Under the pieces are notes generated by a model that worked only from the letters and a program-made list of their open reading frames with translations, searched no databases and had not been told where the DNA came from. A stretch of DNA of 39,451 bases from IMG/VR virus record IMGVR_UViG_3300047277_000010, positions 1 to 39,451 of that record. One strand, written 5' to 3'. The DNA is from a virus. Shown here piece by piece: positions 1 to 39,451 of the stretch; the stretch's first letter is position 1; each line of letters opens with the position of its first letter. The position numbers were made by a program, and so were the translations under genes.

Positions 1-484
1 ATGTAATACCATTTAAGGTTTCTTTATCTCTACAATATCCAAAATCCAACCAAGCTACCATACCATTATCAACATATCCATTGTTAATAGCATCATTGAC
101 AAAATGTGATTTCAATAGATTAACAAGAACATAATCTACTGACCAATATTCTGGATTTCTAATTTGATTGGGATTAATTTGTTTTAGATAATTTTCATCT
201 TTTTGTATCCGTTCAATCTTTTCACGGAATACTGGAAACATATCAGGAAAATGTTGAATGATAATTTTAGTTTTATCTTCTTTACCTTTGCGAAGTTTAG
301 CAACAGTTTTAACTTGGTCTTCTGATGTGTAAATTATCATCTGGTTATCTAATTCAGCAAGATAACCAAATCTTTCCATATAAGTATCAGTAGTTCGTTG
401 TAGATAACCTGGTAATCCTTTATCTGTTCCCCAATCACCACGACCAATATCAAAAAATGCTGTTACAATTGTTATATTACTCAT
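1..484 (-). CDS. YibB/HtrL-like protein (3' end missing)
   Basis: The gene starts with ATG at 484-482 and stays open to the window edge, so only about 161 N-terminal residues are visible. The N-terminus MSNITIVTAFFDIGRGDW closely resembles the start of the enterobacterial YibB/HtrL family, and a later WLDFGYCR segment also fits. The family is known from lipopolysaccharide-core gene neighbourhoods; its biochemical role is not established, but its folding pattern suggests a glycosyltransferase-like enzyme. The start codon overlaps the stop of the next gene upstream by one base (TAATG), so the two are translationally coupled. It is the last visible member of a row of three sugar-transfer-type genes. 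I infer a role in modifying a cell-surface or phage glycan. The family call rests on motif recognition and the function is open. Confidence 0.7.
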   Translation of the reverse strand, partial: MSNITIVTAFFDIGRGDWGTDKGLPGYLQRTTDTYMERFGYLAELDNQMIIYTSEDQVKTVAKLRKGKEDKTKIIIQHFPDMFPVFREKIERIQKDENYLKQINPNQIRNPEYWSVDYVLVNLLKSHFVNDAINNGYVDNGMVAWLDFGYCRDKETLNGIT

Positions 485-19245: not shown

Positions 19246-19274
19246 ATTATATCACACAATATCTAAATTGGCAA
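19246..19274 (-). promoter_or_regulatory. Sigma70-type promoter for genes 47-46
   Basis: Minus-strand TTGCCA (19274-19269), 17-nt spacer, TATAAT (19251-19246). The -35 box lies in the last codons of gp55, and the -10 ends 28 nt before the gp47 start. Confidence 0.8.
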
Positions 19275-19830
19275 GCGTAATTTCTTCTTCGGTGTCTATA
19301 AATTTATCCAGGCCTTTTTGTTTCTTGACAATAACCTTTTTATTTTCCAACACCTTCTCAAAGGTTTCTATAAACTTGGATAGATTATCATATATCTCGA
19401 ATTGTACACCATTATCACCGAACTCCAACATTTCTTGTTCAGCATCAAACCCGAACTTGGTTGCAGATTTATATTTGATATATTGGTGCGTTTTTTCTTT
19501 GTGTATTCTTCTTAGAAATGCATAATAAATTATCTGTGTGAAGTATGCGAATGGATTTTTGGATTTATCGGGATTAAAATTTCGGTAATACATCAAACAG
19601 TTTTCAATACCATCAGAGATCATTTCGTCACGGTAGGTGTAGTTCATGAAATTTGGTTTATGTGATAAACCTTCTGCGATTTTCATAAAACATTCGGCAA
19701 TATAGCTAGGTAACATCGGTTCTGGCAAATCTTTTTGCTTAGTTTCATGACAATTTTTGGTGTGTTCAATAAGGGCTTCAAGGAAGTCTACGTTATTAAC
19801 ATAATCTTTTCTGACCTTTTTTTCTTTCAT
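19252..19830 (-). CDS. 55: Late-transcription sigma factor gp55
   Basis: A 192-residue homologue of T4 gp55, the divergent sigma factor that directs host RNA polymerase to TATAAATA late promoters when linked to the gp45 clamp. SYIAECFMKIAEGLSHKPNF, TYRDEMISDGIENCLMYYRN and KNPFAYFTQIIYYAFLRRIH correspond to the sigma region 2 core that melts the -10 element. Length matches T4 (185). Many copies of its expected target are found upstream of structural genes in this window. The intergenic repeat R1 lies directly upstream, beginning 25 nt before the start codon. Confidence 0.95.
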   Translation of the reverse strand: MKEKKVRKDYVNNVDFLEALIEHTKNCHETKQKDLPEPMLPSYIAECFMKIAEGLSHKPNFMNYTYRDEMISDGIENCLMYYRNFNPDKSKNPFAYFTQIIYYAFLRRIHKEKTHQYIKYKSATKFGFDAEQEMLEFGDNGVQFEIYDNLSKFIETFEKVLENKKVIVKKQKGLDKFIDTEEEITLANLDIV

Positions 19831-19861
19831 AATATATTCTCGATTTATTTTCGTTTAGGGC

Positions 19862-19891
19862 TTGCCAAGGTTATGGTATTAGTGTTATAAT
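19862..19891 (+). promoter_or_regulatory. Plus-strand sigma70-type promoter in R1
   Basis: TTGCCA (19862-19867), 18-nt spacer, TATAAT (19886-19891), directed opposite to all the genes. The same boxes and spacing occur in repeat R2. TTGCCA is also used by the gp47 promoter of this phage, which supports function. Confidence 0.7.
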
Positions 19892-19896
19892 GCTAT

Positions 19897-20013
19897 TACA
19901 CCAAACCTGCTTTGGAACTTATCTAGTTAAACATTATATAAAACATGGTGTTCTGGAGTGAAACGACAGCACGAAGTGTAATATAATTGCTCCGCAATGT
20001 CGCTTCGCTCCAA
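19897..20013 (+). ncRNA. Candidate structured small RNA from R1
   Basis: Downstream of the plus-strand promoter, CACCA (19899-19903) can pair with TGGTG, and GGAGTGAAACGACA (from 19955) can pair with TGTCGCTTCGCTCC (19998-20011). The long stem encloses two small hairpins: CAC-GAA-GTG and ATTGC-TCC-GCAAT. The same architecture is kept in R2 despite sequence changes. No T-tract follows, so the 3' end is unclear. Transcript existence is inferred. Confidence 0.5.
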
Positions 20014-20018
20014 ACAAA

Positions 20019-20378
20019 CTAGTGTAATTTCTTCTTTCCTAATTTAGCTGTATCAAATGCGGCTATTACTTCTTCTATGCTAGTTTGTTCTGTATCATAA
20101 TTCTTTGTATCCATAATTAAAGATTCTATGTTGTTTTGGTAGAACTCCGCAAGAGTTTCACTAGGATCAAATATACATAACACATTCGCATCGGATATGG
20201 TGGTTTCATTTTGTTTTACTATATCAATTGGTATCCAGTGTTGCATAACCAGTTCAGGTTCATCCTCCTCATAATCTAAAAATACCACCATCGGATTCTT
20301 TACAACATTAATTCCCGACATATGCGTGTGTTCACATATAATATCCAAACCATCTTGTAATCTAATAATCTTAATCAT
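20019..20378 (-). CDS. Small Sm-like-fold candidate protein, copy 2
   Basis: A 119-residue protein beginning MIKIIRLQDGLDIICEHTHM, with VVKNPMVVFLDYEED, an HWIPIDIV strand and a C-terminal FDPSETLAEFYQNNIE helix. The order of an L-x-x-G-x-D strand, an NP turn, an x-x-P strand and a C-terminal helix parallels the 102-residue protein at 9814-10122. I take the two as diverged paralogues with a small beta-barrel. Function is unknown and RNA binding would be speculative. Its start overlaps the uvsW stop by four bases. Its 3' end lies six bases from repeat R1, whose plus-strand transcript would run antisense to it. Confidence 0.75.
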   Translation of the reverse strand: MIKIIRLQDGLDIICEHTHMSGINVVKNPMVVFLDYEEDEPELVMQHWIPIDIVKQNETTISDANVLCIFDPSETLAEFYQNNIESLIMDTKNYDTEQTSIEEVIAAFDTAKLGKKKLH

Positions 20379-21874
20379 TTCAGTCCTATTTTATATAATT
20401 TAAATTTAAACTTTTCTTCGGTGTAGATTTTAGTTCTTTCCATAAAATGTTTCAAGGTGAAATTAACATGCTTATTATGGCGAATATCATCTGCTATATC
20501 ATATAAGGTTGCTTTAGTTTTGCCTTCGGATTGTCTTAATCCTCTACCAATACTTTGTAAATTCCTTACACGACTTTTACTAGGTGATGCAAAAATAATA
20601 TTATGTAAATTTCGTATATTAACACCGGTGGAATACACACCAAATGAAGCGACAATAATAGCATTAGATTCTTCTTCAACAATCTTTCTAATATTTTCTC
20701 GATCATCGGTTGCTGTTCCTCCATGAACAAAGAACACTTTTCTATCACCTATCTGTTTCGAGTTCTTAATAAGATTATACAGGATTTTACCATGTTTGTC
20801 AACCAGTTGGAATAAAACTAGTGTATTATTATTCATACTAACCGCTAAATTTTTTATAAAGTTATTACGGAGTTCATTAGTAATAATATATTCAATCTCC
20901 TCTTGATAGGTACAGCTCTTCATAAGATTACACACTTCATCACTATGCTTTAATACAAGACATTTGATATTGAAGTCTACAAGTTCCTTTTTATCAATCA
21001 GTTCCTTGGTCGATATAACCTTCTTGACAGTTCCAAATAAACCTTCCAGCACCAATTTATGTGTTTTCATACCGGATAAGGTACCTGTCAATCCTATTCG
21101 GTATTTTGTTTCTGATAATTTTTCCATAATATCTCTTATGGAATTGGCTTGAGCTAAATGCACTTCATCACAAATAACATAGTCGAATTGATCAAAATAT
21201 TCTTTATCTTGTTTGAATATTGATTGCCAAGTGGATATTGTTAAGTTCTTATTAGTCTCCTTAGATTGACCTTGATAAATCTTATGCACATTATCATCAA
21301 CAACAAATCCATTTTCACTAGAGTAGTCTTCAAAATCTGAAAATAATTGTGATACCAGATTCACGGTGGGTACAATAATAAGACCTCGTAGTTCTTGGTA
21401 TTCCAATAATTGACGGAATATAAGGTAGATTATAAGACTTTTACCTGATGCCGTAGGAGATAATAACAGAGCTCTGCGTTTCTGCATAGCGTGTACAAAT
21501 GCTTCTATTTGGTGTTCTCGCACATCAATGGGATTGCCACGGGAATGTAGTTTAAGTTCGGTGAAGAATTCCTTAGCTAATTTTACGGAGAACGCATCTT
21601 CTAGGTCTGGTCGGGTATGGTCATATTCAAAGGTATAATCTCTTGATTGACAAAATTCTTCTATGTATGGTATTAGACCAAGATACAATAGATTTGTTTG
21701 TAGGTTCAATAATCTAATTTTTCCATCCCAGATTTTATTTCGGTATGCGGGAACAAAGGTATATCCTGGAACAAAAAAGGTTAGAAAATCCGATAGTTCT
21801 TGTGCTATAGCTCTATCACAGTGCACCTTGGCATAGACTTCATTCTTTTTAGAGATAATTACATTAGTTTCCAC
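20375..21874 (-). CDS. uvsW: UvsW superfamily 2 helicase
   Basis: A 499-residue homologue of T4 UvsW, the ATPase that remodels branched DNA and R-loops and shuts down origin replication in favour of recombination. After a 100-residue N-terminal domain come REHQIEAFVHAMQKRRALL, Walker A PTASGKS (140-146) and VICDEVHLAQA (DEVH box). GLTGTLSGMKTHKLVLEGLF, STGVNIRNLHNIIFASPSKS and SIGRGLRQSEGK (motif VI) follow. Length equals T4 UvsW (about 503). It overlaps uvsY by 11 nt and the small Sm-like gene by 4, forming a three-gene module. Confidence 0.96.
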   Translation of the reverse strand: METNVIISKKNEVYAKVHCDRAIAQELSDFLTFFVPGYTFVPAYRNKIWDGKIRLLNLQTNLLYLGLIPYIEEFCQSRDYTFEYDHTRPDLEDAFSVKLAKEFFTELKLHSRGNPIDVREHQIEAFVHAMQKRRALLLSPTASGKSLIIYLIFRQLLEYQELRGLIIVPTVNLVSQLFSDFEDYSSENGFVVDDNVHKIYQGQSKETNKNLTISTWQSIFKQDKEYFDQFDYVICDEVHLAQANSIRDIMEKLSETKYRIGLTGTLSGMKTHKLVLEGLFGTVKKVISTKELIDKKELVDFNIKCLVLKHSDEVCNLMKSCTYQEEIEYIITNELRNNFIKNLAVSMNNNTLVLFQLVDKHGKILYNLIKNSKQIGDRKVFFVHGGTATDDRENIRKIVEEESNAIIVASFGVYSTGVNIRNLHNIIFASPSKSRVRNLQSIGRGLRQSEGKTKATLYDIADDIRHNKHVNFTLKHFMERTKIYTEEKFKFKLYKIGLK

Positions 21875-22298
21875 TGATAAACCTTTCCCAGTCTATAAAT
21901 GACCTCAATTGCCAAGACCTTTGTTTTAGTTCACCCATGATAGATTCCACTACAGAAACGATTTCATCATGATATACCTTGCGTTCTAGTAATTTTATAA
22001 GGTGGCCATCTGCTTCCAAATAGGTATTAACATCCGATTTAAGTTTCAAATTAAATGGTTCCCAACCATGGAGTTCATAATCCTCCTGTGTAAACTTGCC
22101 TGTATAGTATTCCCACTTGATTTTGCGCATACGAGTGTAGTCGAAATGTGCTTTCTTGGATGCTAATTTATGTTTGACTAGGATGGAAAGGTATTTGTTG
22201 TGTAACTTAGGAATGTTGATTAATTCTTTACCGGGTTCCGTTTGATCCATTTCAGCATCAATTTCCCATAGGTCAAGAATTTGTTCTAGATTTTTCAT
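21864..22298 (-). CDS. uvsY: UvsY recombination mediator
   Basis: A 144-residue, helix-rich protein: NLEQILDLWEIDAEMDQTEP, KLHNKYLSILVKHKLASKKA, KIKWEYYTGKFTQEDYELHG and a C-terminal RSWQLRSFIDWERFISGN. The pattern and length match T4 UvsY (137). UvsY loads UvsX onto gp32-coated single strands. It leads the uvsY-uvsW-Sm-like module. Repeat R2 lies directly upstream, beginning 23 nt before the start, so any minus-strand leader of uvsY contains the complement of R2. No minus-strand sigma70 promoter is visible in that gap. Confidence 0.88.
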   Translation of the reverse strand: MKNLEQILDLWEIDAEMDQTEPGKELINIPKLHNKYLSILVKHKLASKKAHFDYTRMRKIKWEYYTGKFTQEDYELHGWEPFNLKLKSDVNTYLEADGHLIKLLERKVYHDEIVSVVESIMGELKQRSWQLRSFIDWERFISGN

Positions 22299-22327
22299 AA
22301 TATATCCTTCTTATTTTCAATTAGGGC

Positions 22328-22357
22328 TTGCCAAGAATATGGTTGTTGTGTTATAAT
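22328..22357 (+). promoter_or_regulatory. Plus-strand sigma70-type promoter in R2
   Basis: TTGCCA (22328-22333), 18-nt spacer, TATAAT (22352-22357), the same geometry as in R1 although the spacer sequence differs. It points away from uvsY towards the 3' end of the tube-like gene. Confidence 0.7.
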
Positions 22358-22362
22358 GCTTA

Positions 22363-22469
22363 TTCACCAAACCTGCTTTAGAAGAAAACAAGTGGTGTTA
22401 TGGAGCAAACGAAGTGAAGCGACAACACGAAGTGTAAATTAATTGCTTCGCAATGTCGCTTCGCTCCAA
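22363..22469 (+). ncRNA. Candidate structured small RNA from R2
   Basis: CACCA/TGGTG can form a first stem. GAAGTGAAGCGACA pairs with TGTCGCTTCGCTCC (22454-22467, one wobble and one or two mismatches at the base). The loop contains ACAC-GAA-GTGT and ATTGC-TTC-GCAAT hairpins. Relative to R1, the first inner hairpin changes a G-T to an A-T pair and the second differs only in the loop. Transcription is inferred from the promoter. Confidence 0.5.
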
Positions 22470-22489: not shown

Positions 22490-23020
22490 TTATATATCCA
22501 GTATATCAAAGTATTCATAGGTGAATGATGTGGATGCTGTTAAGATATCATCAGCTGATGCACTGGTATCAAATTCTATATCCGATAATGAGGTAGGAAA
22601 AGCATTAATGAATTGGATTCTAACTACTGGATTATTTAGTGCATTTAATACAGTTAAAGTTATATCTGAATAATTTAATAAAGTTTTACCTATTTTTTTA
22701 CCATCCCTTCCGGTCATATAGTTGCGTTCTTCAAAACTGGTTGGTGCTGCTATAGCTCTAAACCAATCATGTATTTCTCGCCATCCTTTTAAATCCTCAT
22801 CCACCAGAAATTTCATATCAAATGGTGAATAAGACATTTTAGTTCCAGGTACATGCATATCTAGAAATGGTGTATTATATTCTGCAGTACCAATAGTCAC
22901 ACCTGGAATATTAGCTGTTTGACAGAAATATTTAACGGTTGGAATCCTATCAATAGTTACTAGATATTTGGTAGGTTGTAATAGATTGGTATTAACTGGA
23001 CTTCTATCTAGTGCTGACAT
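22490..23020 (-). CDS. Tail-tube-fold structural protein (second copy)
   Basis: A 176-residue protein with LLQPTKYLVTIDRIPTVKYF, NIPGVTIGTAEYNTPFLDMH, GTKMSYSPFDMKFLVDEDLK and GWREIHDWFRAIAAP. C-terminal strands (SASADDILTASTSFTYEYFD) complete the domain. This is the layout of gp19-type tail-tube domains and of baseplate proteins with the same fold. It is distinct from the canonical gp19 at 31101-31646. I infer a tube-baseplate or tube-terminating role, uncertain. Its ATG shares one base with the HAD gene stop. It is the last late gene before repeat R2. Confidence 0.75.
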   Translation of the reverse strand: MSALDRSPVNTNLLQPTKYLVTIDRIPTVKYFCQTANIPGVTIGTAEYNTPFLDMHVPGTKMSYSPFDMKFLVDEDLKGWREIHDWFRAIAAPTSFEERNYMTGRDGKKIGKTLLNYSDITLTVLNALNNPVVRIQFINAFPTSLSDIEFDTSASADDILTASTSFTYEYFDILDI

Positions 23021-23660: not shown

Positions 23661-23668
23661 TATTTATA
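23661..23668 (-). promoter_or_regulatory. T4-type late promoter before the HAD gene
   Basis: Minus-strand TATAAATA, 24 nt before the HAD start codon. The TAA inside the motif is the stop codon of the endonuclease gene (23666-23664). Confidence 0.75.
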
Positions 23669-24251
23669 TAACAACTTTCTTACACTTCCACCCTTTATAT
23701 GAACCTCTGGATAGATTGCCTTGGTCTAATTTGTTATCTCTACAAAATTGATTTAGGTTGGTTATAACTTGTTTTTGACCAGTGGGACTTGTAATGGTCC
23801 ATTCTTTAGACAGGGCTTTAGCTACTGATATTTTTTGTGAATCGGGTTGTTTAAATCCTATACGACTTAATCTTAACTTTTCATAATCATATACACCATT
23901 ACTATGTCTATCTTTTGCTTTTTGCCTATTGTTTTCCAATTGTTCTTCTGTCCACCAACCTTTTTCCATACCACCATCAAGACCATTTTCCAATTTTAAG
24001 TTTGCCCATTCATCAGACTCTACTATGTTATTTTCACAAGAGAATTCCTTTGCATATTTCACTAATGAATCTACACTTGTGAATAGTTCATACCAAATAG
24101 TTTCAACAAATTCTTCACCGTGTTTTTTTATGTGTCTCTTCCAATACTTACCGGATCCTAGATATTGTACAGGATCATCTTTTGTTGTTTTACCAAAATA
24201 TTTTAGGCCTGTTACTGAGTGTTGTTTGATATAAAGATATGTATTTTTCAT
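23664..24251 (-). CDS. GIY-YIG homing-type endonuclease
   Basis: A 195-residue protein whose N-terminus (YLYIKQHSVTGLKYFGKTTK, then YLGSGKYWKRHIKKHG) carries the GIY-YIG nuclease pattern in a variant common in phage-encoded free-standing homing enzymes. A conserved Glu candidate lies in the following segment. The middle is a charged linker (TEEQLENNRQKAKDRH), and the C-terminus (NLNQFCRDNKLDQGNL to YKGWKC) resembles a NUMOD-type DNA-binding module. It is inserted between the major capsid gene and the HAD gene, with a T4-type late promoter of its own. No intron is visible in the neighbours, so it is free-standing. Its likely role is spread into phages lacking the gene. Confidence 0.8.
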   Translation of the reverse strand: MKNTYLYIKQHSVTGLKYFGKTTKDDPVQYLGSGKYWKRHIKKHGEEFVETIWYELFTSVDSLVKYAKEFSCENNIVESDEWANLKLENGLDGGMEKGWWTEEQLENNRQKAKDRHSNGVYDYEKLRLSRIGFKQPDSQKISVAKALSKEWTITSPTGQKQVITNLNQFCRDNKLDQGNLSRGSYKGWKCKKVVI

Positions 24252-37973: not shown

Positions 37974-39451
37974 TTAAGCCGAATGTGAATTAAACCCGGT
38001 TGGATCAATAGATTCTATATCAAACTTAATTTTATATCTAAATTCCCGATCAAATTTAACTCTATATGCGTCTTCAACATCATAGCTTAATAATAATTTA
38101 AATTCTCTGTCCCAATTTACTTTAGCTTTGGTTAAGGACGTAATGTATGGGTAAACATGATCAAGTAAACCGGTTAATTGTAAACTTAGTAAATCAACTT
38201 TTACTAAGTTTGTTACCCCACCATGTGTTGATGTGATGCTATGACCAACGAGGTTAACCGGGAATGTAGCAACTTCTGCACCAAAACTACTAGTAATACT
38301 AAAACCATCTAGTTGATATCTTGTTAATGCTGATGGTTGTCCAAAATCACTAGTGATATTATGACCAGTTAAAAATATTGTTTCATCTGGTGTGTCAACA
38401 CCAAAACTACCGGTAATATTGTTGCCGGTTAAGTTTATTGTTTGTGATTTGGCAAATGTTCCAAAATCACTAGTGATATTATGACCAGTTAAAAATATTG
38501 TTTCAGCTGGTTTATCGACACCAAAACTACTGGTAATATTGTTACCAGTTAAGTTTATTGTTTGTGATTTGGTAAATGTTCCAAAATCACTGGTAATATT
38601 ATGCCCAGTTAAAAATATTGTTTCATCTGGTGTGTCAACACCAAAACTACCGGTAATATTGTTACCAGTTAAGTTTATTGTTTGTGATTTGGTAAATACA
38701 CCAGAACCACTAGTGATATTATGACCAGTTAAAAATATTGTTTCAGCTGGGTTATCGACACCAAAACTACCGGTAATATTGTTGCCGGTTAAGTTTATTG
38801 TTTGTGATTTGGTAAATGTTCCAAAATCACTGGTAATATTGTGACCAGTTAAAAATGCACTTTGTGTTGCAAATAATGAATTGGTTGTGTTGGTAATGGT
38901 GTTGCCGGTTAATGTTATTACTTGTGTTTTTGTAAATTCACCAACACCAATGGATATAACATTGCCTGTTGGTATAATTTCTTGTAATTTGGTAAATACA
39001 CCAGAACCACTGGTAATATTATGACCAGTTAAAAATATTGTTTCAGCTGGGTTATCGACACCAAAACTACTGGTAATGGTATTACCTGTTAATGGTACAA
39101 CTTGTGTTGTTGTGAGTGTACCGAAACTGCCGGTTATAACATTGCCAGTAATAAATGCACTTTGTGTTGCAAATAATGAATTGGTTGTGTTGGTAATGGT
39201 GTTGCCGGTTAATGTTATTACTTGTGTTTTTGTAAATGAACCAAAACTACTGGATATAACATTGCCTGTTGGTATAATTTCTTGTAATTTGGTAAATACA
39301 CCAGAACCACTGGTAATATTATGACCAGTTAAAAATATTGTTTCAGCTGGGTTATCGACACCAAAACTACTGGTAATATTGTGGCCAGTTAATTGCTCAA
39401 CTTGTATTCTTGTGAGTGCACCAAATACGCTGGTAATTGTGTTGCCTGTAA
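37974..39451 (-). CDS. Repeat-rich fibre-like structural protein (5' end missing)
   Basis: An uninterrupted minus-strand frame ends at TAA 37976-37974 and runs off the right edge (at least 491 residues). No start is inside the window. Except for about the last 80 residues it is built from 20-residue repeats with the core LTGxNITxxFG, in alternating versions. The non-repetitive C-terminus (VKVDLLSLQLTGLLDHVYPY, then AKVNWDREFKLLLSYDVEDA) ends GFNSHSA. Position before gp13 corresponds to the T4 baseplate/fibre/whisker genes. Similar glycine- and threonine-rich repeats occur in structural proteins of aquatic T4-like phages. A long beta-solenoid or fibrous shaft is inferred, and the exact part is unknown. 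Confidence 0.8.
   Translation of the reverse strand, partial: TGNTITSVFGALTRIQVEQLTGHNITSSFGVDNPAETIFLTGHNITSGSGVFTKLQEIIPTGNVISSSFGSFTKTQVITLTGNTITNTTNSLFATQSAFITGNVITGSFGTLTTTQVVPLTGNTITSSFGVDNPAETIFLTGHNITSGSGVFTKLQEIIPTGNVISIGVGEFTKTQVITLTGNTITNTTNSLFATQSAFLTGHNITSDFGTFTKSQTINLTGNNITGSFGVDNPAETIFLTGHNITSGSGVFTKSQTINLTGNNITGSFGVDTPDETIFLTGHNITSDFGTFTKSQTINLTGNNITSSFGVDKPAETIFLTGHNITSDFGTFAKSQTINLTGNNITGSFGVDTPDETIFLTGHNITSDFGQPSALTRYQLDGFSITSSFGAEVATFPVNLVGHSITSTHGGVTNLVKVDLLSLQLTGLLDHVYPYITSLTKAKVNWDREFKLLLSYDVEDAYRVKFDREFRYKIKFDIESIDPTGFNSHSA
38221..39451 (-). repeat. Nested 60-bp/120-bp coding repeats in the fibre gene
   Basis: About 20.5 in-frame 60-bp units, all exactly 60 bp long. 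From about 38341 to 38860 two unit types alternate (LTGNNITGSFG and LTGHNITSDFG versions), giving a 120-bp period. The segment 38851-39060 recurs almost identically at 39151-39360, a 300-bp higher-order duplication. The first units (38221-38340) are the most diverged. Confidence 0.9.

Follow-up and report, generated by a model that had tools for sequence, protein, structure and literature searches.

How should one understand promoters that point against every gene around them? The question is raised by a 39.4-kb IMG/VR record, analysed over its whole length (hereafter, the window), which holds part of the genome of a T4-like phage, Kyanoviridae in type. Its gp23 gene has 77% DNA identity to that of Methylophilales phage Melnitz, and PHROGs identifies gp46, gp47, gp55, UvsW, UvsY, the tail tube protein gp19 and gp23 in it. 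The minus strand carries all real open reading frames of the window as well as a tRNA-Trp gene. In two places, upstream of gp55 (R1) and upstream of uvsY (R2), the plus strand displays a promoter, followed by a leader of about 50 nt and then by a cluster of hairpins. The initial annotation proposed that this pair encodes a phage small RNA, maintained by selection on its plus-strand structure. Our preferred explanation, to which we give an even chance of being right, sees in R1 and R2 two copies of a cassette for early antisense transcription, acting in cis at gp55 and at uvsY-uvsW.

Two cassettes facing the genes

The region reads as follows, with positions counted from the first nucleotide of the window.

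19252..19830, minus strand: gp55, the late sigma factor (phrog_234, 5.6e-56), directly downstream of R1 on the gene strand
19862..19891, plus strand: R1 promoter, with -35 TTGCCA (19862-19867), 18 nt, and extended -10 TGTTATAAT (hexamer 19886-19891)
19898..19953, plus strand: R1 leader, from the predicted 5' end of the transcript (ACACCAAACCTG...), placed by the -10 spacing; its 5' block is conserved
19954..20012, no strand assigned: R1 hairpin cluster, with arms 19955-19967 and 19999-20011 around inner hairpins 19969-19979 (loop GAA on plus) and 19986-19998 (loop TCC on plus, GGA on minus)
20019..20378, minus strand: hyp119, a small conserved protein, the first gene that an R1 transcript would oppose
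20375..21874, minus strand: uvsW, helicase (phrog_16)
21864..22298, minus strand: uvsY, recombination mediator (phrog_231), directly downstream of R2 on the gene strand
22328..22357, plus strand: R2 promoter, with -35 TTGCCA (22328-22333), 18 nt, and extended -10 TGTTATAAT (hexamer 22352-22357)
22364..22401, plus strand: R2 leader, the 5' part of the transcript from its predicted start
22402..22467, no strand assigned: R2 hairpin cluster, with arms 22402-22406 plus 22416-22423 (a 9-nt insert between them) and 22455-22467, around inner hairpins 22425-22435 (GAA on plus) and 22442-22454 (TTC on plus, GAA on minus)
22490..23020, minus strand: gp19, tail tube, the last late gene before R2 and the first that an R2 transcript would oppose

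The R1 promoter is antisense to gp55 and hyp119, that of R2 to uvsY and gp19. Both are of the sigma70 type, with 11 of 12 consensus positions and an extended TGn. Their coordinates, their make-up (TTGCCA, 18 nt, TATAAT on the plus strand) and their orientation against protein genes that all lie on the minus strand had been described correctly, and R1 and R2 are indeed the sole repeated intergenic DNA of such length, the other long repeats of the window being coding. The two align over a 73-nt block (85%) and a 57-nt block (91%), and an nhmmer profile built on the promoter and start region detects two copies in the window, no more, and never more than two in any longer related contig. R1 falls between the uvsW unit and gp55. 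T4-type late promoters (TATAAATA) number seven on the gene strand of the window and none on its plus strand, six of the seven falling within 23.7-38 kb, which places R2 at the late/early border, where the late block ends and uvsY-uvsW starts. As for hyp119, it is syntenic with a cyanophage gene labelled T4-GC 139.

More conventional accounts of these gaps fared poorly. There is no good sense sigma70 promoter between R1 and gp55 or between R2 and uvsY; a minus-strand TATAAT at 19938, considered as such a promoter within the cassette, was rejected because it is not conserved. Neither R1 nor R2 contains an intrinsic terminator, and no T-run (U-tract) follows the hairpins. No protein-coding explanation was found for the cassette gap, and the three copies checked by eye have no plus-strand open reading frame in common that could make a small peptide. 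A bacterial origin of the hairpins, suggested by REPIN-like GGAG/CTCC ends, was also discarded: the 18-nt arm has 10 scattered single genomic matches, close to chance, and so belongs to no host repeat family. The Rfam search that had been recommended gave no relevant match, at the gathering score or otherwise, be it for the window, for the cassette region at a relaxed threshold or for nine related loci.

Other features of the neighbourhood are worth recording. A perfect TTGACA-17-TATAAT lies inside uvsW on the minus (gene) strand (20802-20774); it is kept in several relatives and decays to TAGACA or TGGACA in others, and it may be an internal promoter for hyp119 and gp55, or reflect codon usage only. 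In relatives, the uvsW region holds insertions of homing-endonuclease-like or unknown open reading frames: uvsW matches are split around an inserted frame in L127:3103-5436, and a 343-aa opposite-strand frame interrupts the gene in L005:183-1214. The gp19-gp23 junction is likewise an insertion hotspot, with a homing-endonuclease-like gene at 23664-24251 of the window and large opposite-strand frames in relatives (L008:2107-3873, L127:7872-9371, L129:4556-6055), of 588 aa with a DUF7487 match or of 499 aa with a sub-threshold Mom-like match only. At 38245-39392, on the minus strand and running off the end of the window, 60-bp tandem repeats encode units of about 20 residues, e.g. LTGNNITGSFGVDTPDETIF; the units of this array (38.2-39.4 kb) alternate between two types, and the product is probably a tail-fibre or surface protein. 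Finally, GC skew changes along the window, from about -0.15 left of 19 kb to about -0.05 beyond it, and a comparable shift is seen at the uvsY element of a related contig, G006.

The cassette in relatives and the gp55 promoter across the family

Scans of 2.9 million viral contigs, by exact pattern and with protein anchors, retrieved homologues of the cassette in about 18 contigs, at the same two junctions (hyp-gp55 and gp19-uvsY) wherever the contig extends that far; an R2 DNA search of annotated phages at a distance found no cassette. Among 15 aligned copies, the -35 (TTGNCA), the -10 plus GC (TATAATGC) and a start motif, ACxAxAxC, vary little or not at all, whereas the copies differ in spacer, leader and hairpins, the pattern expected of selection on a promoter reading in the plus direction. 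Distant copies even carry the consensus -35, TTGACA. The promoters, initially put forward as plausible, are thereby found to be real by comparison, being kept in every homologous cassette while spacers change. The promoter pattern has 27 matches, in 19 of 19 records searched, most of them picked for holding the cassette, and the reversed control has none.

The hairpins follow a different track. Copies within a genome are closer to one another in their hairpins than same-site copies are across genomes (the L003 pair; G001 and G002; G004 and G006, the members of each of the last two pairs coming from the same samples and being counted as one genome), which means that recombination homogenises the copies. 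In the lineage of the window, what comes after the promoter is a leader plus a hairpin cluster, both homogenised between the copies of one genome. One relative (L091/G007) has lost the gp55 copy together with its antisense promoter. Two others hold a single copy each in a variable early region, where it is not antisense. In G002, the cassette is placed codirectionally ahead of small early genes, about 20 nt before a Shine-Dalgarno-like stretch; in G004, it occupies a long codirectional gap, with a terminator-like hairpin and its T-run on one side and the promoter-like site of the next gene on the other. These placements suggest that the cassette is a portable early promoter with a structured leader, which is antisense at gp55 and uvsY.

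A different perspective opens at gp55, where the antisense promoter extends well beyond the cassette. It is present upstream of the gene in 18 of 22 Kyanoviridae isolates (S-PM2, P-SSM2, S-SSM7, HTVC008M and Pelagibacter phage Mosig among them), where it departs from TTGACA/TATAAT by one mismatch or none and the spacing is nearly always 17 nt. Shuffled gaps contain such a promoter in 0.45% of cases, and none of 174 control stretches does. In the same scan, T4, Melnitz and S-N03 have no good antisense promoter there. Over a fixed 160 nt upstream of gp55, an antisense TTG[AC]CA-16..18-TAnnnT occurs in 57 of 70 non-redundant loci (1.2% of shuffles), a scan that leaves HTVC008M and phiM19 unscored for their longer gaps, both having the full promoter in the isolate scan. 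A sense promoter is found at gp55 too (17 of the 22 isolates), making the gap a divergent pair in many phages. A freshwater group that has no cassette often shows a weak antisense -10 (TAAAGT), with TAnnnT retained, and a box, ATGTnCC, recurs about 4 nt after it (33 of the 70 loci for the looser HTGT version). In some 30 distinct freshwater contigs (e.g. L014, L056, L077), the entire hyp-gp55 gap is a compact conserved element, where gene-strand TTGTCAA direct repeats and a GGnACAT box stand beside the antisense promoter.

The uvsY site differs: none of the 22 isolates has an antisense promoter there, 14 have a sense one, and the antisense promoter is confined to the cassette lineage. Being family-wide at gp55 and restricted to one lineage at uvsY, the arrangement would be ancestral at the former and derived at the latter, and the copies at uvsY and in early regions would seem to have arisen later, by duplication. 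In contigs L013-L066, which have no cassette upstream of uvsY, a sense TTGACA-TATAAT has an inverted repeat as its spacer (AACATnnnnnATGTT), likely an operator. What comparison of sequences tells us is conserved, then, is the position and orientation of a host-type sigma70 promoter pointing away from gp55 and uvsY.

The sigma factor gp55 brings about the switch of T4-like phages to late transcription. Having counterparts in most related phages, the antisense promoter beside its gene is probably not noise but a control point that has been overlooked. We found no report of it in searchable open-access papers, the subscription and PeSL literature lying mostly outside that scope, and we provisionally regard it as undescribed so far. 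The cyanophages of this family rank with the most abundant marine viruses and, if a conserved opposing promoter at gp55 is true, they would possess a simple means of timing that has escaped notice. The gp55 part is general, and the strand-specific RNA-seq already available for infections such as those by S-PM2, P-SSM2 or their relatives makes it open to an immediate check.

A proposed antisense control and its rivals

We infer the transcription, RNA length, timing and effect of the two promoters as follows. Early in infection, host RNA polymerase would start at R1 and R2, yielding a short structured RNA, part of which may run on. The RNA from R1 would oppose transcripts arriving from hyp119 and uvsW, that from R2 the late gp23-gp19 block. 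Acting in cis, through polymerase collision and antisense pairing, they would shield the gp55 and uvsY-uvsW units from premature or read-through expression, a block that would lift as sigma70 promoters wane and late transcription passes to the gp55 polymerase. The hairpins may stabilise or end the RNA, or mark a boundary. In T4, a late promoter drives the expression of UvsW, which ends R-loop replication and switches the replication mode (PMC3016281). To be sure, several facts count against this cis-antisense reading: the lack of a terminator that would set the length of the RNA, the loss in L091/G007, the G002 and G004 copies that are not antisense, the lack of the promoter in Melnitz, T4 and S-N03, the absence of an antisense promoter at uvsY outside the cassette lineage, and the often weak -10 (TAAAGT) of the group without cassette. 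A more ambitious proposal, which we hold tentatively and with some doubt, is that antisense RNA control is family-wide in Kyanoviridae, an early antisense transcript, made upstream of gp55 by host sigma70 polymerase, setting the time of the early-to-late switch as well as that of UvsW onset, and that one lineage made of it a duplicated structured-RNA gene.

A discrete trans-acting small RNA of about 105-200 nt, with two or three gene copies, is the reading closest to the initial annotation, and we consider it unlikely. The stems on which it was built are real and kept. They form mostly C(GNA)G hairpins with 3-nt loops (GAA, GTA, GGA), which in the contigs of relatives are nearly confined to cassettes. 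The anticipated covariation among homologues was found: 6 pairs have double-sided changes, as compared with 2.1 in shuffles, an upper estimate inasmuch as the set holds 8 sequences and its poorly aligned first inner hairpin inflates the count; 90.8% of cells are paired, as against 26-51% when slid. Other structural details stood in part. The two 3-nt-loop hairpins appear in the alignment fold (three-way) and in the DNA fold of R1, but the single-sequence RNA minimum-free-energy fold is a rod; the CACCA/TGGTG stem is intact by eye in 5 of 8 close copies, but absent from L009/L010 and from more distant copies; and a covariance-model search does find plus-strand copies, but in the close clade only, since distant copies exchanged their hairpins.

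What found no support, in the form proposed, is the claim of selection on a plus-strand RNA. The G-N-A loops can be read on either strand, 12 G-T wobbles on the plus strand are balanced by 13 A-C cells (G-U on the minus strand), there is no terminator, and minus-strand RNA folds at least as well as plus (z of -4.7 and -6.0 for R1 and R2 relative to shuffles, as against -3.4 and -4.4). With wobbles evenly split, and with minus-strand and DNA folding as well, the stems tell neither the strand nor RNA from DNA. A small-RNA gene would fit a homologous unit that spans promoter to hairpin end and stops there, and the terminator-like and promoter-like flanks of the G004 copy; it fits less well with stems devoid of strand preference, with the missing U-tract, with distant copies whose leader and hairpins are replaced wholesale and with older gp55-site promoters that precede unrelated sequence. 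The promoters proposed for a plus-strand small RNA stand, and the discrete RNA itself is a candidate. That the gp55 promoter keeps its place and orientation while the RNA downstream differs favours cis antisense over a trans-acting RNA as the core role.

Another way to see R1 and R2 is as mobile PeSL-like units, early promoters with a stem-loop that spread by recombination and are sometimes antisense by their landing, with no dedicated antisense role. Concerted evolution within a genome (the L003, G001/G002 and G004/G006 pairs) is just what such units would display, the G002 copy stands immediately ahead of early genes, and cassettes of this sort are known in T4-like phages (Arbiol et al. 2010; Comeau et al. 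2014, as cited in PMC4503421). Yet nearly all relatives have their copies at the same pair of core-gene junctions, outside hyperplastic regions and with constant orientation at both, the gp55 antisense promoter is older than the cassette, and the stem-loops have no terminator U-tract; we find this account improbable.

If these were replication origins of the R-loop type, like T4 ori(uvsY), the promoter transcript would serve as primer for DNA synthesis, and the C(GNA)G mini-hairpins would work on DNA in its single-stranded form. In T4, the origin transcript at uvsY is read sense with uvsY, while here it would be antisense. Still, oriF at the T4 uvsY gene does use a promoter transcript (PMC3016281), the structure lacks strand bias and also folds as DNA, and a shift in GC skew lies near R2 in the window, as it does in G006. 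The skew shift, however, coincides with the early/late gene border too, and sites such as cyanophage gp55 have no hairpin cluster, which leaves this possibility at a low level. Finally, we give very little credence to the antisense hexamers being by-products of a gene-strand regulatory site, such as one for a gp55 activator made of TTGTCAA repeats and a GGnACAT box, for while the direct repeats of the freshwater group are about one helical turn apart on the gene strand and the ATGTnCC/GGnACAT box recurs, the exact 17-nt antisense spacing to TAnnnT in 49 of the 70 loci (0.2% of shuffles) and the full extended -10 of the cassettes speak against it.

Comparison with known systems

Antisense transcription in general has been reported for Kyanoviridae (PMC10976474). 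In T4, antisense transcription of gene 32 (Belin et al. 1987) and RNAs C and D (PMC3014915) are likewise antisense or small non-coding RNAs; they have no relation in sequence or locus to the cassettes, and T4 is devoid of the gp55 antisense promoter. The same review notes that no small trans-acting regulatory RNA from T4 had been functionally characterised, and suggests T4-related genomes as a place to look (PMC3014915). T4 ori(uvsY)/oriF resembles R2 in being a promoter at the uvsY locus with a transcript that has a non-coding role (PMC3016281), but R2 has the opposite orientation, a host-type rather than a MotA middle promoter, and a hairpin cluster. CfrI of cyanophage S-PM2 (Millard et al. 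2010, as cited in PMC5931967), which concerns psbA together with a homing endonuclease gene, is again a cis-antisense RNA of a T4-like phage, and of the family of the window phage. Here, the cassettes are at gp55 and uvsY, with the gp55 promoter family-wide.

A close parallel is with the promoter-early stem-loops (PeSLs) that T4-type phages carry (work of Arbiol et al. 2010 and of Comeau et al. 2014, both as cited in PMC4503421). Both associate a strong sigma70-like promoter (early in its predicted timing, for the cassettes) with a stem-loop, and the cassettes are repeated and homogenised in a T4-like genome, with early-region copies in relatives. PeSLs are dispersed copies in hyperplastic regions that mediate module shuffling. 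The main copies of the R1/R2 type are antisense at conserved core-gene junctions, and G002 and G004 have one copy each in a variable early region; the cassette stem-loops lie downstream of the promoter, with C(GNA)G triloops and no U-tract, and no terminator-like site was found in R1 or R2. The cassette, which for want of a stem-loop terminator is not filed as a PeSL, would nevertheless work like a promoter and stem-loop of the PeSL type put to conserved antisense transcription.
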